In this document: piece by piece, positions 8,650 to 35,965 of the stretch
Layout: every line of letters begins with the position of its first letter
Position numbering within the stretch: position 1 is the stretch's first letter
Source of the DNA: Actinomycetota bacterium
GTDB lineage: Bacteria; Actinomycetota; CADDZG01; JAHWKV01; JAOPZY01
NCBI GenBank assembly: GCA_035765775.1
Contig: DASTWV010000012.1
Span: 1-42,144 of the forward strand
Length of the DNA: 42,144 nt
Direction of reading: 5' to 3'
The notes under the pieces: generated by a model
Databases searched by the model: none
What the model saw: the letters and a program-made list of their open reading frames with translations, nothing else
Told to the model about the DNA's origin: nothing
Made by a program: the position numbers and the translations under genes

Positions 8650-10787
<2,138 letters not shown>

Positions 10788-10791
<4 letters not shown>

Positions 10792-13478
10792 CGCACCTGC
10801 GGGCGACGTACCGGCTACAGCTCCGGCCCGAATTCGGCTTCGAGGACGCCGCCGCAGTCGTCTCGTACCTGGCTGAGCTCGGGGTGTCCCATGTCTACAC
10901 CTCGCCCCTCCTGCAGGCCGCTCCGGGGAGCACCCACGGCTACGACGTCGTCGACTACGGCTGGGTCTCGGAGGAGTTGGGGGGCTCCGCCGGGCTGGCC
11001 GGCCTGGAAGGCGCCGTGGCCGGGAGCGGGATGGGGATGGTCATCGACATCGTCCCGAACCACATGGCCACCGGGCCGGAGAACGCCTGGTGGTGGGATG
11101 TCCTGGAGAACGGCCCCGCCAGCCGGTACGCCTGCTGGTTCGACATCGACTGGCACGGCCCCGAGACCCGGCTGCACAACAAGGTGCTGCTGCCCATCCT
11201 CGAAAGCCACTACGGGCGCGTGCTGGAGGCCGGCAAGATCTCCGTGGTCCGCACCGGCGCGGTGTTCCAGGTGCACTGCCCGGGCCACCCGCTGCCGGTG
11301 ACCCCCGAGTCGCTGGACCTGCTCCTGCTGCTGGCGGCGATCACCTCAGGCTCCGGGGAGCTGGAGAGCATCGCCGCGGCCCTGGGTCGCCTGCCGCCGG
11401 GCACCGCTACCGACCCGGAGGCCGTGCGCGAGCGGTCCCGGGACGCCGAGGTCCTGCTGGGGTCGCTGGCCCGGCTGCTGGACGACCGGCCCGCCGTGGC
11501 GGCCGCGGTGGACGCCGCCCTGGCGCTCTTGAACGCCGACCCCGACACCCTCGATGTCTTCCTGGAGCGGCAGAACTACCGCCTGGCCTACTGGCGTACC
11601 GCCGGCCGGGACCTGCCCTACCGGCGCTTCTTCGACATCAACACCCTGGTGGGGCTCAACATGGAGCGGGAGGAGGTCTTCGCCGCCACCCACGCCCTCA
11701 TCGGCCGGTGGCTGGATGAGGGCCGGCTGGACGGTGTGCGCGTGGACCACCCGGACGGTCTGCGGGATCCTGAGGGGTACCTCGGGCGCCTGCGGGAGAA
11801 GGCGCCTGCGGGCTGGATCGTGGTCGAGAAGATCCTGGAGCAGACCCCGGAGGGCGAGGAGGCCCTGCGGGCCTCCTGGCCGGCCGACGGCACCACCGGC
11901 TACGAGTTCCTCAACCGGGTCAACGGCCTGTTCGTCGACCCGGCGGGCGAGCCGGCGCTGAGCGACCTGTACCTGGAGTTCAGCGGCGAGGTGCGCGACT
12001 TCGGTGAGGTCGCCCTCGCCTCGAAGCACGACGCCATGTCGAGCGTGCTGGCCAGCGACATCAACCGCCTGACCGAGCTCATGGTGCAGGTGTGCGAGCG
12101 CCACCGGCGCTACCGGGACTACACCCGCCACGAGCTACACGAGGCGCTGCGGGAGTTCCTCGCCTGCCTGCCGGTCTACCGCACCTACGTCGATGCCGAC
12201 CGGGACCGGCTGGCACCCGAGGACCGGTCGGTGGTCCTGGCCGCCGCCGAGCGCGCCCGGGCCCGGCGCAGCGACCTCGACCCCGAGCTGTTCGAGTTCC
12301 TCACCGCGGTCCTGACGCTGGTCCTGCGCGGCCCGCAGGAGACCGAGCTGGTCATGCGCCTGCAGCAGATCTCGGCGGCGGTGATGGCCAAGGGCGTCGA
12401 GGACACCGCGTTCTACCGCTACCACCGGCTGGTGTCCCTGAATGAGGTGGGCGGGTCCCCGGAACACTTCGGCGGCGACGTGGCGTCGTTCCATCGTGCC
12501 TGCCGGCGGGCTGCCGAGCGGTGGCCCCGGGCGATGCTGACCCTGGCCACCCACGACACCAAGCGGGGCCCGGACGTGCGCGCCCGGCTCAACGTGCTCT
12601 CCGAAATTCCCGACGCCTGGGCGGGGGCGGTCATCGAGTGGATGAAGCACAACGACCGCCACCGGTCGCCTCAGGGGGCAGCAGTATGGCCCGACCACAA
12701 CCTCGAGTACCTGCTCTACCAGACGCTGGTGGGAGCGTGGCCGCTCTCCGGGGACCGGGCGCTGGCCTACCTGCAGAAGGCGGCGAAGGAGGCCAAGGAG
12801 CACACGTCGTGGACCGATCCCAACCCCGAGTACGACGCCGGCCTGGAACATTTCGTACGCGAAGTACTGCGCGACGAGTGGTTCCTCCGGGAGCTGGAAG
12901 CCTTCGTGGGGCAGGTCCGCGGGCCGGGCTGGGTGAACGGCCTGGCGCAGATGCTGGTCCTGCTTACCGCCCCGGGGGTCCCCGATCTGTACCAGGGCAC
13001 CGAGCTCTGGGACCTGAGCCTGGTGGACCCCGACAACCGGCGCCCGGTCGACTACCCGCTGCGGGTCCGGATGCTGCAGCGCCTGGAGTCCGTACCGGCC
13101 GGGGGGCTGTGGGCCGAGGTGGAGTCGGGGCTGCCCAAGCTGGCGGTGGTCAGGGCGGCGCTGGACGTGCGGCGGCGGTTCCCGGCTGCCTTCGAGGGGT
13201 CCTATGAGCCGCTGGCGTCCGAGGGGGAAGCGGCTTCCCACGTGGTGGCATTCTGCCGGGGTGGGGAAGTGGTGACCGCCGTCCCGCGTCTGGTCATGGG
13301 CGTGCTGGGCGGGCGCGACGGCTGGGGCCTGCGCCCCGGCCCCGCCTGGCGCACCGCGCTGATCCTGCCGCCGGGCAGGTTCCGGGAGGCGATCTCGGGG
13401 CGGGTCTTCGAAGGGGGTGCCGCCCTGGGCGACCTGTGGGCCCACCTGCCGGTGGCGCTGCTGACCCGGGAATCGTGA
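10788..13478 (+). CDS. treY: Maltooligosyltrehalose synthase
   Basis: An 896-residue GH13 enzyme that isomerises the reducing-end alpha-1,4 bond of maltooligosaccharides to the alpha,alpha-1,1 bond of trehalose. Family signatures are the N-terminal [13 protein letters not shown] and the barrel residues Asp320 (VRVDHPDG), Glu347 (VVEKIL) and Asp590 (THDTKR). It is longer than many bacterial TreY proteins (about 700-800 residues), with the additional length spread between conserved blocks. The ATG overlaps the glgX stop. It ends by overlapping the GTG of treZ. It works with GlgX upstream and TreZ downstream in the cytoplasm. Confidence 0.97.
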
Positions 13479-15229
13479 CCCGCTTCGCCGTCTGGGCGCC
13501 CCAGGCCCGTGAGGGAGTGGCGCTCGTGGCCGGGGGCCGCCCGGTGCCGATGGCGCCCGCCGCGGGGGGCTGGTACGCCCTGGAGGTGCCGGCCGGGGCG
13601 GGATCGGGGACCGAGTACCGCTTTGCGCTCGACGGCGGCCCTCCGCTGGCCGACCCCCGCTCGCCGTGGCAACCGCACGGCATCGACGGCCCCTCCCGGG
13701 CGGTGGACCACTCGGCGCACACCTGGACGGACGCCGGCTGGCGGGGTGCCACCATGGCGTGGCTGTCGGGCGGGGCCATCTATGAGCTCCATGTCGGCAC
13801 CTTCACGCCCGAGGGGACCTTCGAGGCCGCCATCGCCCACCTGGACCACCTGGTGGCGCTGGGCGTCCGGGCGGTGGAGCTGATGCCGGTGGCGGAGTTC
13901 TCCGGGGACCACGGCTGGGGCTACGACGGCGTGTTCCTCTTCGCCCCGCACCACGCCTACGGGGGCCCCGAAGGACTGAAGCGCCTGGTGGATGCCTGCC
14001 ACCGGGCGGGCCTGGCGGTGCTGATCGACGTCGTCTACAACCACCTCGGGCCCGCGGGCAACGTCCTGGCGCAGTTCGGGCCGTACTTCACCGACCGGTA
14101 CGCCACCCCCTGGGGCTCGGCCGTGAACCTCGACGGGCCGGGCAGCGACGAGGTCCGGCGCTTCTTCATCGACAACGTGCTCATGTGGTTGCGGGACTAC
14201 CACGCCGACGGGCTGCGGATCGACGCGGTCCACGCCATCGTCGACACCTCCGCGGTGCACCTGCTGGAGGAGATGGCCGGAGCCGTGGCGGGCCTGGAGG
14301 GCGAGGTCGGCCGTTCCCTGGTGCTGATCGCCGAGAGTGACCTCAACGACCCCCGCGTCGTCCGCCCCGAGGCCCTGGGCGGCTACGGCTTGGACGGCGT
14401 GTGGAACGAGGACTTCCACCACGCCCTGCACGCCGCCCTCACCGGCGAGCAGGCGGGCTACTACCAGGACTTCGGGCCGCTGAGCGACGTCTGTGCCTGC
14501 CTGGAGCGGGGGGCGGTGTATGACGGGCGTGTCTCGCGGTTCCGGGGCCGGCGCCACGGGCGGCCCTTCGACGGGGTGGCGGGGCGCTCCTTCGTGGGGT
14601 TCGTGCAGAACCACGACCAGGTGGGCAACCGGGCGGTGGGGGACCGGCTGGCCGCCCTGGTGCCCATCGGGCGCCTGAAGATCGCCGCCGCCCTCGTGGT
14701 GCTCTCGCCCTTCGTGCCCATGGTGTTCATGGGCGAGGAGTGGGGGGCCTCGACGCCGTTCCAGTACTTCACCGACCACCGGGACCCCGAGCTGGGCGCC
14801 GCGGTCTCCTCCGGCCGGCGCCGGGAGTTCGCCGCCTTCGCCGGTATGTCCCCCGACGAGATCCCCGACCCGCAGGACCCGGCCACCTTCGAGCGCTCCA
14901 AGCTGCGCTGGGCCGAGCTGGGCGAGCCGGCGCACGGCCAGCTGCTGACGTGGCACCGCAGCCTCCTGGAGCTGCGCCGCAGCCTGCCCGACCTGGCGGG
15001 CGGGCCGTTGTCCGCCGTCGAAGCGTCATGCCGGGACGATGCCGAGGAGCGCTGGATCCGCATGCGCCGGGGTGCGGTGGAGGTGGCGGCGAACCTCGGG
15101 CCCGCGCTGGTGGAGCTGCCGGTGCCCGGCCAGGGCCGGCTGGCGCTGGTGTCGGCGCCCGGGATCTCGCTGGTGCAGGGGCGCCTGTCCCTGCCACCGG
15201 ATACGGTGGCCGTGGTGGTGGGGACGTGA
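13475..15229 (+). CDS. treZ: Malto-oligosyltrehalose trehalohydrolase
   Basis: A 584-residue GH13 enzyme that releases free trehalose from maltooligosyltrehalose, the last step of the TreY-TreZ route. Domains: a short N-terminal beta domain (FAVWAPQA...), then the barrel with Asp250 (LRIDAVHAI), Glu287 (LIAESDLN) and Asp381 (QNHDQVGNR), and a C-terminal beta domain. Length is normal for the family. The start is the GTG that overlaps the treY stop (GTGA); an upstream ATG inside treY would add 13 non-conserved residues. It ends 88 bases before the convergent methyltransferase. No TreS or OtsAB gene is seen in the window. Confidence 0.97.
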   Translation: MTRFAVWAPQAREGVALVAGGRPVPMAPAAGGWYALEVPAGAGSGTEYRFALDGGPPLADPRSPWQPHGIDGPSRAVDHSAHTWTDAGWRGATMAWLSGGAIYELHVGTFTPEGTFEAAIAHLDHLVALGVRAVELMPVAEFSGDHGWGYDGVFLFAPHHAYGGPEGLKRLVDACHRAGLAVLIDVVYNHLGPAGNVLAQFGPYFTDRYATPWGSAVNLDGPGSDEVRRFFIDNVLMWLRDYHADGLRIDAVHAIVDTSAVHLLEEMAGAVAGLEGEVGRSLVLIAESDLNDPRVVRPEALGGYGLDGVWNEDFHHALHAALTGEQAGYYQDFGPLSDVCACLERGAVYDGRVSRFRGRRHGRPFDGVAGRSFVGFVQNHDQVGNRAVGDRLAALVPIGRLKIAAALVVLSPFVPMVFMGEEWGASTPFQYFTDHRDPELGAAVSSGRRREFAAFAGMSPDEIPDPQDPATFERSKLRWAELGEPAHGQLLTWHRSLLELRRSLPDLAGGPLSAVEASCRDDAEERWIRMRRGAVEVAANLGPALVELPVPGQGRLALVSAPGISLVQGRLSLPPDTVAVVVGT

Positions 15230-26841: not shown

Positions 26842-28131
26842 GTGGGAGACGAAATCGGCATCGGGCTGCTGGGCTGCGGCATCGTGGGCTCGGCGGTCGC
26901 CCGCATCCTGTCGGCCCACGCCGACGAGATCACCGAGCGCTCGGGGGCGCAGCTGGTCATCCGGCGGGTGGCCGTGCGCAACCTGGCGAAGGAACGGGCG
27001 GTGGACGTGCCGCACGACCTGTTCACCACCGACCCGATGGCAGTGGTCCTCGATCCCGATGTGCGCATCGTCATCGAGGTCATGGGCGGCATCGAGCCCG
27101 CCCGGAGCCTGATCCTGGAGGCGCTCGGCGCCGGCAAGTCCGTGGTCAGCGCCAACAAGGAGCTGATCGCCACCCTGGGACGGGAGATCTTCGAGGCCGC
27201 TGAGCGCTCCGGCGCCGACTTCGCCTTCGAGGCGGCGGTGGCAGGCGGCATCCCGATCATCAAGCCCCTGAAGGAGTCCCTGGCGGGGGAGCGGATCTCC
27301 CGGGTGATGGGCATCATCAACGGCACCACCAATTTCATCCTCACCCGGATGAGCGTCGAGGGCCTCGAGTTCGACCAGGCCCTGGCCGAGGCCAAGCGCC
27401 TGGGCTACACCGAGCTGGACCCCTCGGCCGACATCGAGGGCTTCGACCCCGCCGCCAAGGTGTCCATCCTGGCCAGCATCTGCTTCAACGCCCGGGTGGT
27501 GGCCGGTGACGTCTACCGGGAGGGGATCACGGAGGTGACCGCCCGGGACATCGCCTTCGCCCACGACCTGGGCTATGAGGTCAAGCTGCTGGGCATCGCC
27601 GAGATGGTGGACGGGCAGGTGGCCGCCCGGGTGCACCCGGCGATGATCCCGCTGTCCCACCCGCTGGCATCGGTGCGCAACAACCTGAATGCCGTGTTCG
27701 TCGAGGGGGTCAACGTCGGCCAGCTCATGTTCTACGGCCAGGGTGCCGGGGGCCCGCCCACGGGGACCTCGGTGGTGGGCGACGTCGTCGACCTGGCCCG
27801 CAACATCACCACGGGCAGCCGGGGCGTCGGGTGCACCTGCTACCACCACAACGCCCGGATCCGGCCGATGGACGAGACCGCCTCGCAGTACTACATCCTG
27901 CTGGAGGTCGAGGACCGCCCCGGGGTGCTGGCCCGGGTGGCGCAGACCTTCGCCGACCGCGGGGTGAGCATCAACAGCGTGCGCCAGCAGGGCTACGGCG
28001 ACGAGGCCCGTCTGGTGCTCATCACGCACCGGGCCCGGGAGCAGGACTTCCAGGCCATCCTGGGCGACCTGCGCGGCCTGGAGGTCGTTGAGGAGGTGGC
28101 CTCCTGGATGCGGGTCATCGACGAGGAATGA
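26842..28131 (+). CDS. hom: Homoserine dehydrogenase with ACT domain
   Basis: A 429-residue enzyme that reduces aspartate semialdehyde to homoserine with NAD(P)H, the first committed step to threonine, methionine and homoserine derivatives. The N-terminal nucleotide fold is [19 protein letters not shown], the catalytic region includes [14 protein letters not shown] and [12 protein letters not shown], and [19 protein letters not shown] is conserved. A C-terminal ACT domain (about residues 350-429, [20 protein letters not shown]) suggests feedback control by threonine. The start is GTG with GGGAG five bases upstream; a GTG four codons earlier is less well placed. GGATAAT at 26784-26790 may be the -10 element, giving a leader of about 45 bases. 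First gene of a hom-thrC-thrB operon. Confidence 0.96.
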
Positions 28132-28136
28132 GCCAC

Positions 28137-29183
28137 ATGTGGCGGGGGATCATCGAGGAGTACCGGGACCGCCTCCCGGTCACCGAGACCACCCCTGTGG
28201 TGACCCTGCAGGAGGGCGGCACGCCGCTCATCCGGGCGCACCGGCTGTCCCAGGTGACCGGGCTGGAGGTGTACCTCAAGTACGAGGGCGCCAACCCCAC
28301 CGGGTCGTTCAAGGACCGGGGCATGACCCTCGCCGTCTCCAAGGCGGTGGAGAACGGCGCCAAGGCCATCGTGTGCGCCTCGACCGGCAACACCTCGGCC
28401 TCGGCGGCGGCCTACGCCACCCGGGCGGGCGTGGTGTGCGCCGTGCTCATCCCCAGCGGCAAGATCGCCCCCGGCAAGCTGGCCCAGGCGCTGGTGCACG
28501 GCGCCCGGGTGATCGAGATCGATGGGAACTTCGACCAGGCCCTCGAGATCACCCGCAAGCTGGAGGCGTCCTACCCGATCACCCTGGTGAACTCGATCAA
28601 CCCCTACCGCATCGAAGGCCAGAAGACCGGGGCGTTCGAGGTCTGCGACGCCCTGGGGCGGGCACCGGACCTGCACCTCATCCCGGTGGGCAACGCCGGC
28701 AACATCACCTCGTACTGGAAGGGCTACCGGGAGTACCACCGGGACGGCATCATCGACTCGCTGCCGGCGATGCACGGGTTCCAGGCGGCGGGGGCGTCCC
28801 CCATCGTGCGGGGCCACCCGGTGGATGACCCCCGGACGATCGCCACCGCCATCCGGATCGGCAACCCGGCCTCCTGGGACAGTGCCCTGGCTGCCGCGCA
28901 GGACTCGGGCGGGTCGATCGCCGCGGTACGCGACAAGGACATCCTGGAGGCCTACCGCCTGGTGGCCCGGGAGGAGGGCCTGTTCTGCGAGCTGGCTTCG
29001 GCCGCCTCGGTGGCCGGTCTGCTCCAGCTGCACGCCGCCGGCCGGCTCCCGGCCAGTGGCATGGCGGTCTGCGTGCTGACCGGGAACGGGCTGAAGGACC
29101 CCGACTGGGCCATCATGGGGGCGCCCCCGCCCCGCCGGGCGCGCCCCGAGGTGGTGGCAGTCGCCGAGGCCATTGGCTTCTAG
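28137..29183 (+). CDS. thrC: Threonine synthase
   Basis: A 348-residue PLP enzyme that converts O-phosphohomoserine to threonine. The PLP lysine is Lys59 in [11 protein letters not shown], followed by [15 protein letters not shown] and the phosphate-binding [14 protein letters not shown]. It matches the short actinobacterial form of threonine synthase along its whole length. The start is the ATG at 28137, nine bases after GAGGA; the ATG at 28128, which overlaps the hom stop, is too close to that site but possible. The end lies in a 15-base tandem duplication that repeats the TAG stop in frame. Followed by thrB. Confidence 0.96.
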
Positions 29184-29216: not shown

Positions 29217-30104
29217 TTGAGCTACTCCGGTTCGGTTGCGGTCCGGGTGCCGGCCACCACCGCCAACCTGGGACCCGGGTTCGACTGCCTGGGGGCTGCG
29301 CTCGGTCTGTACCTGGAGCTGGTCTTCGAAGCGGCCCCCTCGTCGGAAACCGTTGCGGCAGACCCGGCATTCGTCGCCGGGCCAGTCGGCGAGGACCTGA
29401 CCCACCGGGCATTCGTCGGGGCGTGGGCGGCGGTGGGGGAGCAGGCGCCGCCGGTGAAGGTCACCGTGGCGCGGGCCTACCCGGCCGGGCGGGGCCTCGG
29501 GGCGTCGGCGTCGGCGATCGTGGGCGGGCTGGTGGGGGCGCGGGCGCTGGGTGGGTTGGCGCTGTCCGACGACGAGCTGGCGGGCCTGGCGGTGCGCATC
29601 GAAGGCCACGCCGACAACGTGCTCCCGGCGCTGTTCGGGGGCCTCGTGCTGGCGGGCTCGGGGGTGGGGTGGCAGCGCTTCACGCCCTCGCCGGCGGTGT
29701 GCCCGATCGTCCTCGTCGCACGGGAAGCCTTTGCCACCAAGGCCGCCCGCCAGGTGCTGCCCGACGCCGTCCCCCGGGCGGACGCCCTGGCGAACATGGC
29801 GGCATGCGCGGCACTCGTGGCGATCCTGGCCGGGCTGCAGTCCCCCACGGGGCTTCTGCGGGCCACGGAGGACCGGTTGCACGAGCCCTACCGGCTGCCC
29901 CTGATGACCGAGACCCGGGCGCTGCATGCCGGTCTGCGGGCTGCCGGGGTGCCCGCCGCCCTCTCGGGGGCGGGGCCGTCCGTGCTGATCCTGGTGGATG
30001 ATGTCGCCGCCGGCGAGGCCCGGGAGGTGGCCCGGGACCTGCTGCCGGACGGGTGGGGCATCGCCGATGCCGGGTGGGACCTTACCGGGGCGCGGGCCCA
30101 CTGA
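29217..30104 (+). CDS. thrB: Homoserine kinase
   Basis: A 295-residue GHMP kinase that phosphorylates homoserine, giving the substrate of ThrC. The N-terminal VRVPATTANLGPGFDCLG binds the substrate, the ATP loop is AYPAGRGLGASASAIVGG, and SGAGPSVLIL is the third GHMP motif. The start is TTG with a weak ribosome binding site. The gap of 33 bases to thrC and the gene order make co-transcription likely. The complete route from homoserine to threonine is encoded by the three adjacent genes. It converges on a small membrane protein gene 24 bases away. Confidence 0.95.
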   Translation: MSYSGSVAVRVPATTANLGPGFDCLGAALGLYLELVFEAAPSSETVAADPAFVAGPVGEDLTHRAFVGAWAAVGEQAPPVKVTVARAYPAGRGLGASASAIVGGLVGARALGGLALSDDELAGLAVRIEGHADNVLPALFGGLVLAGSGVGWQRFTPSPAVCPIVLVAREAFATKAARQVLPDAVPRADALANMAACAALVAILAGLQSPTGLLRATEDRLHEPYRLPLMTETRALHAGLRAAGVPAALSGAGPSVLILVDDVAAGEAREVARDLLPDGWGIADAGWDLTGARAH

Positions 30105-30628: not shown

Positions 30629-31177
30629 CTACTTCGAGGTGGCGTGGGCCAGTACCTGGTTCATGAGCATCTCCAGCGTCCGCAGGTCGGTCTGGGCGCT
30701 GGTCACGAAGGCGTTGGAGCCCTTGAGGGCGTACAGGACGATGGTGGTGCCGTACTGCGACGCCAGCGTGACGTAGTAGGCCTGGTCACCCACCCCGGCG
30801 ACGTCCGCCCAGGTCTGGTTGGCGGTGAGCTGGGACTTGTCGGCAGCGAATGAGGCCGCGGTCTCGCCGACGATGACGTCCACCGTGACCAGCTGGCCGG
30901 GGCCGGTGAACGTGCAGTCGGTCTCGGCCTGGGAGGGGTGGTCCACCGTCGGGACGCCCACCGTGGTGCGGAGGGCGGCGTTCACCTCGTCGGGAGTGAC
31001 GATGGTGCAGCCGATGGCCGGGCTGGCCGGGAGCTGGGTGGGCAGCGCGGAGGGGCTGGCCGAGACGCTGGGGGTGGGAGTGGGAGTGGGGGTGCTCTGC
31101 GGTGCCTTCGGCGAGGCGGAGCAGGCGGCCAGGGTGACCGCGATTCCCAGGCACAGGGCGGGCACGAGAGGGCGCAC
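30629..31177 (-). CDS. Lipoprotein, DUF3558-like
   Basis: A 182-residue predicted lipoprotein. The signal peptide RPLVPALCLGIAVTLAAC ends in a lipobox (LAAC, acylated Cys19). A Thr/Pro/Ser-rich tether (STPTPTPTPSVSASPSALPT) leads to a domain of about 130 residues with two cysteines (IGCTIVT and TDCTFTG) that probably form a disulfide. The domain pattern, with VTPDEVNAAL and VGDQAYY, resembles DUF3558-type actinobacterial lipoproteins of unknown function. The start is GTG with no ribosome binding site but a TAGGTT box six bases upstream. Divergent from the cDPG synthetase gene with only 41 bases between the starts, so the two promoters lie back to back. Confidence 0.8.
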   Translation of the reverse strand: MRPLVPALCLGIAVTLAACSASPKAPQSTPTPTPTPSVSASPSALPTQLPASPAIGCTIVTPDEVNAALRTTVGVPTVDHPSQAETDCTFTGPGQLVTVDVIVGETAASFAADKSQLTANQTWADVAGVGDQAYYVTLASQYGTTIVLYALKGSNAFVTSAQTDLRTLEMLMNQVLAHATSK

Positions 31178-31218: not shown

Positions 31219-32598
31219 ATGGCACCTCCCGGTGTTGCGCGCGATCCCCGTTGCCTTGTCCTGGTGGACGGGGAGCACTACCCACCGGTCATCGCCCGAG
31301 CGCTGGCAATGCTGGTGGCCGAGGGCGACCGGCCCGTCGCCGCCCTGCTGGTGGGGGGTCAGGAGAAGCTGGGCCAGGTGCCGTGGGACCTCGGCATCCC
31401 GGTGGAGGTGCCCTCCGGCATCGAGGACCGGGAGGCGGCCCTGGCCCGGGTCCTGCGCCAGACGGGGGTCAGGCGGGTGGTGGACCTGTCCGACGAGCCC
31501 ATCCTGGGCTACACCGCCCGCACCCGGATGGCCTCGGTGGCCCTGTGGTGCGGCGCCACCTACGAAGGGGCCGACTTCTGCTTCACCCCACCCGACCGAT
31601 CGGCCCACCCCGCCGTGCCCTCGGTGGCGGTCTTCGGGACCGGCAAGCGCACGGGCAAGACCGCCATGGCCGGCTTCGCCGCCCGCTTGTACCGGGAGGC
31701 GGGCCTCGACCCGGTGGTGCTGGCCATGGGGCGGGGTGGCCCGGCGGAGCCCGAGGTCCTGGCCGCCGGCACCCGGCTGGACCGGGAGCACCTGCTGGCC
31801 CTGGTGGCCGAGGGCCGGCATGCCTCGAGCGACTATGTCGAGGACGCCATGACCTCGGGGGCGGCCACCGTCGGCGCCTGGCGGGCCGGCGGCGGGCTGG
31901 CCGGGGCGATGGCCTACACCAACTTCCCCGCCGCCCTGGCGGCGGCCGAGGCCCTGGCGCCCGGACTGCTGGTGCTCGAGGGCAGCGGCGCCGCCATCCC
32001 GCCCGCCCGGGCGGGGGCAGGGGTGCTGGTGGCCAATGCCGCCACGGCCCCGGAAGCCCTCGGCAGCTACTTCGGTTTGTACCGGTTGTTGCTCGCGGAC
32101 GTGGTCGTGCTTACAATGTGTGAAGAGAGCCTCGGCCAGGAGTACATGGCGGCGGCCAAGCGTTGCGCTCGGAGTACTTCCCTCAGCCAACCAAAGGTTG
32201 TTTGCACCGTCTTTCGACCCTACCCCCTAGCAGACGTCTCGGGAAGGAAAATCTGGTTCGGAACCACGGCGAACGAGCGGGCGGGACCGGTTCTCAAGCA
32301 CCATTTGGAGGCAACGTTCGGGTGTGAGGTAGTCGCAATTAGCCATGCCTTGGCGCGGCGGGACGAGTTGCGGCGGGACCTCAGTTCGCTGGCGGATGCG
32401 GCAGGCGGTCACCCGGTGGAGGCGTTGGCGGTAGAGCTGAAGGCAGCAGCCGTGGATGTGGTCACGCGCTGGGCAGCAGAGCACGGACTGGACGTGGTGT
32501 ACGTGGACAATCGCCCGCAGGTCGTCGGTGGCGAAGGACCCCTGGAGCCATTGCTGCTGGAGGTTGCGCAGCTGGCCCGTACACGATGGACGCCGTGA
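31219..32598 (+). CDS. cpgS: Cyclic 2,3-diphosphoglycerate synthetase
   Basis: A 459-residue protein matching the cDPG synthetase family in length and order. It has LVDGEHYPPVIARAL near the N-terminus and an unusual P-loop FGTGKRTGKT at about residues 139-148. SDEPILGYTARTRMAS and YEGADFCFTPP precede it, and LEGSGAAIPP, ANAATAPEALGSYFGLYR and CEESLGQEYM follow. Known members use ATP to close the intramolecular phosphoanhydride of 2,3-diphosphoglycerate, making the thermolyte cDPG. The next gene encodes the kinase for the preceding step. The ATG has no ribosome binding site but a -10 box ten bases upstream. The part after about residue 284 has clearly lower GC and rarer codons than the first two thirds. 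Confidence 0.88.
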   Translation: MAPPGVARDPRCLVLVDGEHYPPVIARALAMLVAEGDRPVAALLVGGQEKLGQVPWDLGIPVEVPSGIEDREAALARVLRQTGVRRVVDLSDEPILGYTARTRMASVALWCGATYEGADFCFTPPDRSAHPAVPSVAVFGTGKRTGKTAMAGFAARLYREAGLDPVVLAMGRGGPAEPEVLAAGTRLDREHLLALVAEGRHASSDYVEDAMTSGAATVGAWRAGGGLAGAMAYTNFPAALAAAEALAPGLLVLEGSGAAIPPARAGAGVLVANAATAPEALGSYFGLYRLLLADVVVLTMCEESLGQEYMAAAKRCARSTSLSQPKVVCTVFRPYPLADVSGRKIWFGTTANERAGPVLKHHLEATFGCEVVAISHALARRDELRRDLSSLADAAGGHPVEALAVELKAAAVDVVTRWAAEHGLDVVYVDNRPQVVGGEGPLEPLLLEVAQLARTRWTP

Positions 32599-32680
32599 TG
32601 GGTGGGGGAAACTGCGCCAGGCGGTAACCGGAATGGTTCCAGCATTGTGAAGACCAAAATGAAGAGGCAAAGGAAGCCGC
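32070..32680. other. Segment of atypical composition inside and after cpgS
   Basis: By hand count, G+C is about 82-83% in 31741-31800 and 31981-32040, but 57-60% in 32101-32280, and about 67-72% in 32341-32580. Codons such as CTT, ACA, TGT, CTA, AAA, GTA and ATT, rare in neighbouring genes, cluster here. The intergenic part before the kinase gene is also lower in GC, and high GC returns from 32690. Confidence 0.7.
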
Positions 32681-32681
32681 A

Positions 32682-33806
32682 ATGAAGGTCCGCCGGGCGG
32701 CGACGCCGGCCCCGATCCTCATCTCCGACACCACCCAGGGCCTCCCGTATTCCAAAGGCCTGCTGGCATCATCGATGATGGTGGCCGGCGTGGCGCCCGC
32801 CCAGGCGTACCGGGTTGCCGAGCGGGTGGAGCAGGTGCTGGTGGAGCGGGGCGTGAGCCAGATCTCCGGGACGGAGCTCCGGGACCTCGCCGCCTCGATG
32901 CTGGCCGAAGCCGACCAGGCCCACGCCCAGGGCTACCTGGACTGGCAGGCGGTGGAGGACCTGGAGCAGCCGCTGGTCATCCTGATCGGCGGGGCCACCG
33001 GGGTGGGCAAATCCACCATCGCCACCCAGCTGGCCGCCCGGCTCGGGATCACCCGGGTGATCTCCACCGACGCCATCCGGGAGGTGTTGCGGTCCGCCTT
33101 CTCGGAGGCCCTGATGCCCAGCCTGTACGTGTCGTCGTTCAATGCCGATGCCGCCCTCCGGGTGCGGTCGATCTCGTCGCCCGCCGAGCAGCTGATCGTG
33201 GGGTTCCAGGAGCAGGTCACGGCGGTGTCGGTAGGCATCAAGGCCCTGATTTCCCGGGCTCTGGAGGAGGGAACCGATATCATTGTGGAGGGTGCCCACG
33301 TCGTCCCCGGTTTCCTGGACGGGTGGGAGGAGGAGTTCACTCAGGCGGTCCTGGTCCCCGTGGTCGTGGCCGTGTCGGATGCCGAGACCCACCGGACCCA
33401 CTTCGAGCTCCGGGCAATGGAGACCCGGGCGCGGCCCCGGGACCGGTACCTGGCCCACTTCGACAAGATCCGGGCGCTCCAGGCCTACATCGTCAAGCAG
33501 GCGGAGCGGACCGGTACCCCGGTGGTGGAGATGGTCGACCTCGACTCAGCCCTCCAACGGGTCGCGGCCCTGGTGATGACCAAGGCCCTGGAGCGGGCGG
33601 GGGCCTGGAAGGAGGCCGAGGGCGCAGCGGCCCTGGGGACGGCGCCGGATGCCCCCCAAGTGGACGACGTGAACGACGTGGGTGATGCAGGTTCTCCGGT
33701 GGCATCGGGGCGCCGGTCACGCAACGGGTTGAGCGCCACACGCCGGGTGGCGAAGGCGGGCCGGATGGGAGCCTGGGAGCCCCTCGGGGCACGGAGGCGA
33801 GGTTAA
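32682..33806 (+). CDS. 2-phosphoglycerate kinase with N-terminal ATP-cone-like domain
   Basis: A 374-residue kinase. Residues 1-90 (VRRAATPAPILISDTTQGLP, then ASSMMVAGVAPAQAYRVAERV) look like an ATP-cone regulatory domain. The kinase P-loop is GGATGVGKST (residues 103-112), followed by VISTDAIREVLRS and IIVEGAHVVPGFL. Known members phosphorylate 2-phosphoglycerate to 2,3-diphosphoglycerate, the substrate of the enzyme encoded just upstream. The last 60 residues, after AWKEAEG, are of low complexity and basic (GARRRG end), absent from archaeal forms of about 300 residues. The ATG has AAGGAAG six bases upstream. An in-frame mini-ORF for a basic 12-residue peptide (32647-32685) overlaps the start codon. 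Rho follows after 68 bases. Confidence 0.85.
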   Translation: MKVRRAATPAPILISDTTQGLPYSKGLLASSMMVAGVAPAQAYRVAERVEQVLVERGVSQISGTELRDLAASMLAEADQAHAQGYLDWQAVEDLEQPLVILIGGATGVGKSTIATQLAARLGITRVISTDAIREVLRSAFSEALMPSLYVSSFNADAALRVRSISSPAEQLIVGFQEQVTAVSVGIKALISRALEEGTDIIVEGAHVVPGFLDGWEEEFTQAVLVPVVVAVSDAETHRTHFELRAMETRARPRDRYLAHFDKIRALQAYIVKQAERTGTPVVEMVDLDSALQRVAALVMTKALERAGAWKEAEGAAALGTAPDAPQVDDVNDVGDAGSPVASGRRSRNGLSATRRVAKAGRMGAWEPLGARRRG

Positions 33807-33874
33807 GGGGGGCATTCAGATGACACAACAGCTTGTCCAGCAACGAAAAGCACGCAGAAAGGAGGCGGGAACGA

Positions 33875-35965
33875 ATGGATGAGACCCAGACCCAACAGCG
33901 GTCGATGCTCGCCGGAAAGCTCGTTTCCGAGCTCCAGGCGATCGCCGAGCAGGTGGGAGTGAAGGACCCGAAGAAGCGCAAGAAAGCGGACCTCATCGAT
34001 GCCATCCTCGGGACGGTTCACGGGAGCCCGGAGAGTGGCGGCAACGGTACGGTCAATGGGGGAGAGGAGCGCCAGCGCGGGTTTGGCGCACCTCCCGCGG
34101 GCGAGAGCGGCAACGGCGCACCGGCTGCCGGCCCCGTTCGGTCGGCGCCGGCTGCTCTGCCTGCCCCAGCTGGGGAGGGGCGGAACGGGACCGCCGCCGC
34201 GGCCCCCCGTCCCCACACGCCGTGGCGTCCCCCCGTGGTGCCCGGCATCCCGGTCCCACCGCAGCCCGGCCTGGCTCCTGCCCCGGCACCGGTTGCCGAG
34301 GGTGCGCCCGCGCCGTCGGCACCCACCGGTGGGACGGAATCCAGTCGGACGGAATCCAATGGGACGGAATCGGCGGCGCAGTCCGCAACCGCGTCTGCAG
34401 CGCAGGCCCCAGCGCAGGCCCCCAGCGGGGAATCTGCGGATGCCGCCAGCGCATCCCAGGCACCGACCACCGACACCCCGGCCTCCCCGGGAGAGGCTGC
34501 CGCCACCTCGGCGCCGGCCACCGGCGAGTTGGCATCGGCGGAGGCGTCGTCCGGCGCCCCGTCCTATGCCCCCTCCCAGGGCGAGGGGCGGCCCGAGTAC
34601 CGCCGGGACCGTGACGGTGAGGGGGGTCGGGACCGTGGCCGGCGCCGGCGGCGCCGGGACCGCAACGACCGGCCCGAGCGCCCGGGCGACCGGGTGGAGC
34701 GGACGCCGGACCGCAACTTCGACCGCGGGCAGGACCGCAACTTCGACCGCAACTATGACCGGGGCGCGGACCGGAACATCGACCGGGGCGAACGGACGGA
34801 CACCCGGCCCCGGCGCGAGCCGGAAGTCGAGGACACCAGCGACCTCGAGGTGCGCACCGGCATCCTGGACGTCCTGCCCGAGGGCTACGGCTTCCTCCGC
34901 ACCAGCGGCTACCTGCCCGGGCCGGAGGACGTCTACGTGTCGCTCTCCCAGGTGCGGCGCTCGCAGCTCCGCCGGGGCGACCACATCGTCGGGGCGGTGC
35001 GCAGGCCCAAGGAGGGCGAGAAGTACCAGGCCCTCGTGCGCATCGACAAGGTGGACGGCATGGCCCCCGAGGAGGTCATCGGCCGGAAGTGGTTCGAGAA
35101 GCTGACCCCGCTCTACCCCGAGACCCGCCTCCACATGGAGCTGGCCGAGAACCCGGCCCAGATCGCCCAGCGGATCATCGACCTGGTCGCTCCGATCGGC
35201 AAGGGCCAGCGCGGGATGATCGTCTCGCCGCCGAAGGCGGGCAAGACCACGATCATGAAACAGATCGCCAACTCGGTCACCTCCAACAACCCCGAGTGCC
35301 ACCTGATCGTGCTGCTGGTGGACGAGCGGCCCGAAGAGGTGACCGACATGCAGCGCTCGGTCAACGGCGAGATCGTCTACTCGACCTTCGACCGGCCCTC
35401 GGAGGACCACATCCAGGTCACCGAGCTCACCCTGGACCGGGCCAAGCGCCTGGTGGAGCTGGGCAATGACGTGGTGATCCTGCTGGACGGCATCACCCGG
35501 CTCTCCCGGGCCTACAACCTGGCGACGCCGGCGTCCGGGCGCATCCTCTCCGGCGGTGTCGACTCGACGGCCCTCTACCCGCCCAAGCGGTTCTTCGGTG
35601 CCGCCCGCAACATCGAGGAGGGCGGGAGCCTGACCATCATCGCCACCGCCCTGGTGGATACCGGGTCCCGGATGGACGAGGTGATCTTCGAGGAGTTCAA
35701 GGGAACGGGCAACTGGGAGCTGCGCCTCGACCGGCGGGCCGCCGAGAAGCGGATCTTCCCCGCCATCGACATCCAGGGCTCCGGCACCCGCAAGGAGGAG
35801 CTGCTGCTCTCCTCGGATGAGCTCGCCCTGGTGTGGAAGCTGCGCCGGGTCCTGCACGCCCTGGAGGGCGTGGCCGCCCTGGAGCTGCTGGTGGACAAGA
35901 TGCGCCAGACCAAGGGCAACATGCAGTTCCTGCGGGAGATCTCCAAGGTGACGATCGGCGACTGA
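33875..35965 (+). CDS. rho: Transcription termination factor Rho with long disordered insert
   Basis: A 696-residue Rho, much longer than the E. coli protein of 419 residues. The N-terminal helical domain (residues 1-48, [20 protein letters not shown]) is followed by an Ala/Pro/Ser/Gly-rich stretch (about 49-237) and an Arg/Asp-rich one (about 238-318, with repeats like [14 protein letters not shown]). Then come the cold-shock RNA-binding domain (about 320-395, [19 protein letters not shown]) and the RecA-like ATPase with Walker A PPKAGKTT (near 451) and Walker [10 protein letters not shown] (near 533). [11 protein letters not shown] is conserved at the end. The ATG at 33875 has AAAGGAGG nine bases upstream; a longer frame has no such site. 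Such inserts are common in actinobacterial Rho and may bind RNA or drive condensates. Confidence 0.97.

Follow-up and report, generated by a model that had tools for sequence, protein, structure and literature searches.

The window analysed here, a stretch of 42,144 nucleotides that is the whole of contig C12 in an actinomycetote genome of 3.6 Mb, contains two adjacent forward-strand genes for homologues of cyclic 2,3-diphosphoglycerate synthetase (cDPGS) and 2-phosphoglycerate kinase (2PGK), separated by an intergenic gap of 83 bp. Three WhiB genes are present in the source genome; of 14 control genomes, Corynebacterium alone has this family. Taken with the gene order hom-thrC-thrB-rho, this points to Actinomycetota. 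A first-pass annotation had located both open reading frames exactly, in position, strand and adjacency, and had interpreted them as a two-gene module making cyclic 2,3-diphosphoglycerate (cDPG) as a thermolyte. The features to which we refer are the following.

8650-15226: trehalose genes glgX-treY-treZ, 16 kb upstream of the pair
28128..29183, + strand: thrC, threonine synthase, conserved upstream flank (TIGR00260, over cut-off)
29217..30104, + strand: thrB, homoserine kinase, conserved upstream flank with conserved synteny (TIGR00191, over cut-off)
30629..31177, - strand: lipoprotein-like DUF3558 ORF, divergent from cDPGS (PF12079, 28.4 bits, cut-off 34.1)
31219..32598, + strand: cDPGS homologue, 459 aa, ATG start (phmmer match to PDB 8ork)
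31633..31662, + strand: Walker A motif (P-loop) of cDPGS, FGTGKRTGKT, residues 139-148, aligned with GTGKRIGKT at residues 142-150 of 8ork
32682..33806, + strand: 2PGK homologue, 374 aa, ATG start (NCBIfam NF003259)
32745..32951, + strand: N-terminal ATP-cone-like region of 2PGK, residues 22-90 (PF03477, 22.0 bits, cut-off 25.8)
33594..33803, + strand: C-terminal tail of 2PGK; its short basic motif ends in RMGAWEPLGARRRG (alignment A1)
33833..35965, + strand: rho, transcription terminator, conserved downstream flank (TIGR00767, over cut-off)

The cDPGS homologue matches all three solved sequences (8ork, 8oru and 9sxb) over nearly its full length. The phmmer alignment with the Methanothermus fervidus enzyme extends from residue 11 to 453 of the query and from 6 to 452 of 8ork, N-terminal domain included, with an E-value of 8.9e-87; the E-value for 9sxb is 3.1e-77. 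The P-loop picked out in the first pass is present. Ligand contacts in the M. fervidus enzyme are made by E45 (of the other subunit), K46, K145, R146, K149, T150, D208, E305, T353, E404 and K406 (PMC10690619), and the window protein retains equivalents of all 11. Across 55 aligned cDPGS sequences, archaeal enzyme included, the 2,3-DPG, Mg and P-loop contacts of 8ORU are invariant (55/55), among them the Mg ligands K149, T150 and D208, the 2,3-DPG contacts E45 (of the other subunit), K145 and R146, and the charge-shielding K406; the sole varying ligand contact is E305, which touches the adenosine. Pfam and NCBIfam searches returned no cDPGS model reaching threshold, and an AlphaFold model of the protein, computed without an alignment, was uninformative (pLDDT 39).

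Near base 32069 the third-position G+C content of the cDPGS gene changes from 0.93 to 0.70, and the sharp drop covers positions 32069-32681, that is, the last 40% of the gene and the intergenic gap. Recent recombination within the gene was considered and rejected, as the related genome G001 dips in much the same way and protein identity stays even over the length of the gene; given its recurrence in this relative, the dip may be constrained or regulatory.

The 2PGK homologue matches NCBIfam model NF003259 along residues 12-305 (E-value 2.8e-91) with 306.1 bits, below the curated equivalog cut-off of 343, and we therefore speak of a 2PGK homologue and not of a curated equivalog; the profile check suggested in the first pass gave a strong family match that stops short of the equivalog threshold. 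Its Walker A motif is intact (LIGGATGVGKST, GATGVGKST). The ATP-cone-like domain recorded earlier is real, but in the window protein it is weak and below the cut-off, and it is typical of the family, with 15 of 19 relatives matching at E-values of 0.01 or lower (best 8e-13). The basic tail is likewise real, and its last 15 or so residues (RMGAWEPLGARRRG) are conserved within the window's own order only. We are confident that the two genes belong to the cDPGS and 2PGK enzyme families. The enzyme identities and the product given in the first pass are well supported, judging by the full-length match to solved cDPGS and the kept ligand residues, and the pair very probably makes cDPG.

The distribution of the two genes was surveyed in 296 genomes drawn evenly from Actinomycetota, using cut-offs of E <= 1e-20 for cDPGS and E <= 1e-15 for 2PGK; the window's class is small in this sample, with 23 relatives of the same family, order or class. 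cDPGS is found in 161 genomes and 2PGK in 163, both together in 158 and neither in 130 (phi 0.95). Where the places of both genes were listed (134 genomes), 109 have cDPGS followed immediately by 2PGK on the same strand, with a gap of 24-233 bp (median 65 bp). The genes stand tail to tail in one genome (G288), and in 24 genomes, mostly or all of family f13, 2PGK is located elsewhere. Kinases of the f13 type have GVGTST replacing the GVGKST of Walker A (10/10; loci L047-L056, L066) and exceed the curated NF003259 cut-off, and the cDPGS gene of this family is still found near rho (L065, L096). This looks like a replacement by another 2PGK lineage, with cDPGS staying put.

Across many families the gene order is hom-thrC-(thrB)-...-cDPGS-2PGK-...-rho-DUF1385-prfA-prmC. 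The order hom-thrC-thrB-rho-prfA-prmC is also that of M. tuberculosis. The actinobacterial threonine/rho locus agrees with the loci described here on either side of the pair and differs in what stands between thrB and rho, which here is cDPGS-2PGK. In 14 loci (L058-L063, L067-L070, L072-L075) a gene for fructose-6-phosphate aldolase/transaldolase (TalC) is inserted downstream of 2PGK and before rho; TIGR00875 is over cut-off in all four proteins tested, and TalC is missing from this position in the window's family.

In genomes that lack the pair, thrB lies near rho, and G044, G031, G030 and G058 show the order hom-thrC-thrB-rho. The pair is also absent from g3, a genus of the window's own order: two of its genomes, G002 and G005, retain a decayed cDPGS fragment, interrupted by stop codons, in the thrB-rho interval, and two others, G003 and G006, have no cDPGS remnant. 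The remnants are at about 6222-6479 of L077 (G005) and 5528-5800 of L079 (G002); 2PGK and the phosphoesterase discussed below are lost there too. In the phylogenetic tree, which the first pass had proposed as a check, cDPGS sequences group by taxon. Tree distances of cDPGS, 2PGK and rho correlate at 0.67-0.80, which fits co-inheritance; the correlation is not above that of neighbouring genes and is therefore not used as evidence of interaction. Synteny, tree and empty sites show that Actinomycetota have long carried the pair in the thrB-rho interval and have passed it on vertically, and these observations, together with the remnants, are best read as ancient presence followed by repeated loss.

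In a scan of public genomes the sole named carrier was J002, a metagenome-assembled genome labelled Gemmatimonadetes, and cDPGS is present in both examined genomes of its phylum. In J002 the order is reversed, 2PGK preceding cDPGS with a 4-bp overlap (L034 4775-7386), and its 2PGK is extended at the N-terminus, where a second ATP-cone-like stretch is found. Plasmids in PLSDB gave no match to the pair. Among archaea, thermophilic ammonia oxidisers have been noted to carry cDPGS genes.

Clustering of the open reading frames around the pair revealed a third gene, for a calcineurin-like phosphoesterase (PF00149, about 270 aa), directly upstream of cDPGS in 13 clustered loci. The protein has the PF00149 fold with metal ligands intact and is unusually highly conserved, with motifs that include PGNHDSRNVGYVHFE, HHHLLPVPGTGRERN and GHKHVP. 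A profile built from ten of the upstream proteins (A2; cut-off E <= 1e-50) finds it in 162 of the 296 genomes: 157 genomes have it alongside cDPGS, 4 and 5 are discordant, and 130 have neither (phi 0.94). Among the discordant genomes are some incomplete assemblies, such as G082 (62%). All three genes are present in 154 genomes and none in 128, and among the genomes with strong matches that were compared the phosphoesterase gene immediately precedes cDPGS, on the same strand, in 123 of 125, at a median gap of 52 bp. Co-occurrence of the three genes is partly a matter of shared ancestry; families f2, f7, f24 and f44, however, have some members with all three genes and others with none, so that one shared ancestor alone does not account for the association. 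The module of two genes recognised in the first pass is real as a pair and incomplete as a module; across most of the phylum, the phosphoesterase is part of it.

No phosphoesterase gene is found within the window, where the DUF3558-like ORF occupies the site at which most other families carry it, and in the window's own class the phosphoesterase is not beside the pair. The window genome has a paralogue at C24:61806-62627 (E-value 2e-91), in which the metal-binding and PGTGRERN motifs are intact. Divergent from the paralogue in the window genome (G000), in G004 and in G014 is a gene for a single-domain cNMP-binding protein (PF00027). Genome G288 joins both arrangements, with two such paralogues directly upstream of cDPGS and the same cNMP-domain gene divergent from both, which suggests that the distant paralogue performs the same function. 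The cNMP-domain gene and paralogue of the window genome correspond to L136:996-2358, the former at 996-1427 and the latter at 1501-2358, and their G288 counterpart to L094:10326-12713; the PF00027 protein is a possible sensor of cDPG or of a cyclic nucleotide.

The nearest solved relative of the phosphoesterase is Rv0805 (E-value 1.5e-9). The phosphoesterase shares the PF00149 fold and metal-binding motifs with the Rv0805/CpdA cyclic-nucleotide phosphodiesterases but forms a subfamily of its own, which co-occurs with cDPGS and in which the motifs PGTGR and GHxHVP are invariant; its scores fall well short of all curated NCBIfam cut-offs. In M. thermautotrophicus, a review describes a cDPG hydrolase activity that is membrane-bound, and names no gene for it (PMC1224877). 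Our phosphoesterases would carry out the same reaction, the breakdown of cDPG, but the archaeal activity is membrane-bound and the proteins discussed here are predicted from sequence only. In the literature collection searched, no paper links cDPG to a metallophosphoesterase. By gene association the phosphoesterase is a candidate cDPG hydrolase, and we put the chances of this at about even: the superfamily is large, its substrates are not predictable from sequence, and the nearest solved relatives are cyclic-nucleotide phosphodiesterases.

The reading that we favour, with somewhat better than even confidence, is a module for cDPG synthesis and turnover in non-hyperthermophiles, in which cDPG would serve as a reserve or signal and not as a heat protectant at molar concentration. 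The 2PGK homologue would convert 2-phosphoglycerate to 2,3-diphosphoglycerate at the expense of ATP, and cDPGS would close the ring with a second ATP to form cDPG, which the phosphoesterase may reopen or dephosphorylate, giving back phosphoglycerate and phosphate. The pair and its dedicated phosphoesterase would act as one unit in most of the phylum; in the window genome the paralogue located elsewhere would stand in for the latter. Such a cycle could hold a moderate pool of cDPG that is drawn upon for phosphate, energy or carbon, or that acts as a regulatory metabolite. Reserve roles of cDPG have been discussed for methanogens (PMC1224877).

A thermolyte of hyperthermophiles is expected in a hyperthermophilic host and at 0.3-1.1 M cDPG, and reverse gyrase and 16S rRNA composition do not indicate such a host. 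None of the 296 genomes is over the reverse gyrase cut-off, all matches being confined to the topoisomerase half of the model. In cDPGS carriers the 16S G+C is 52-63% (mean 58.6%; the window genome, 60.1%), compared with a mean of 57.0% in non-carriers. In view of both observations the carriers are unlikely to be hyperthermophiles; they may be moderate thermophiles. (The 16S matches of G010, G012, G014 and G055, at L120, L121, L123 and L125, are 1.7-2.0 kb, over the model length, suggesting insertions or introns in several relatives.) A broader proposal, that concentrated cDPG acts as a solute stabilising proteins in a bacterium that is (moderately) thermophilic or under salt stress, can point to the same two enzymes in M. 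fervidus, to the protection of proteins and DNA by cDPG in vitro (PMC12136491) and to the nearby trehalose genes, which suggest stress-solute metabolism. We nevertheless regard it as unlikely. The carriers are about half of the sampled phylum and include genomes of 1.2-1.8 Mb, they are set apart from non-carriers neither by reverse gyrase nor by 16S G+C, and the dedicated phosphoesterase points to turnover. The trehalose genes, which the first pass had reported correctly, are linked to the pair by proximity only and lie outside its conserved neighbourhood, as far as this is readable. Thus, of the earlier interpretation, the enzymes and their product stand and the thermolyte label does not; a phosphate store or signal, which had also been suggested, fits better.

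It is also improbable, in our estimate, that the pair has been repurposed, acting on another phospho-acid (for instance, a different 2-phospho-hydroxyacid) or stopping at 2,3-DPG, with a product other than cDPG. The kinase does score below the NF003259 cut-off, mevalonate 3-phosphate is the substrate of a homologous kinase family (NF008996), and E305 varies; yet every 2,3-DPG contact is invariant through to the archaeal enzyme, and the tight co-occurrence of kinase and synthetase is what one would expect if one feeds the other. An outright second-messenger system, with cDPGS as synthase, the phosphoesterase as signal hydrolase and the cNMP-fold proteins as receptors, has in its favour the architecture of synthase plus phosphodiesterase, the PF00027 gene divergent both from the paralogue and from the cDPGS-linked copies of G288, and the presence of the system's genes in very small genomes. 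We find it quite improbable, as the PF00027 gene accompanies the phosphoesterase in the window's class and G288 only, and its ligand could be cAMP or cGMP. Returning to the synthesis-turnover module, a bolder form of it is a tentative and rather doubtful proposal: that cDPG is an ancestral, dynamically turned-over metabolite or messenger of Actinomycetota living away from extreme heat, with the phosphoesterase as its hydrolase and, in some lineages, possibly a cNMP-fold receptor.

The likeness to the M. fervidus system (8ORK/8ORU; PMC10690619) consists of full-length homology, the P-loop GTGKRxGKT, the 2,3-DPG and Mg contacts and the same two-step pathway, which is expected here. The pair described here differs in being bacterial, in occurring in non-hyperthermophiles as a fixed operon in the thrB-rho interval, in being linked to a phosphoesterase and, in many cases, a transaldolase, and in a 2PGK below the equivalog cut-off. 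Two recent papers, PMC12136491 being one, call cDPG exclusive to hyperthermophilic methanogens, and no study of bacteria was among the papers that our literature search listed. What we would call new is the wide and old distribution in Actinomycetota, together with the phosphoesterase partner; the enzymes themselves are of known kinds, and bacterial cDPGS annotation may exist. The phosphoesterase provides a specific candidate gene for a hydrolase activity to which the literature consulted assigns none, and non-thermophilic homologues would be convenient enzymes for cDPG production. If the proposed reading is true, an unusual cyclic phosphoanhydride, cDPG, would belong to everyday metabolism in much of a large phylum of bacteria, and what it does would need rethinking in terms of a reserve or a signal.
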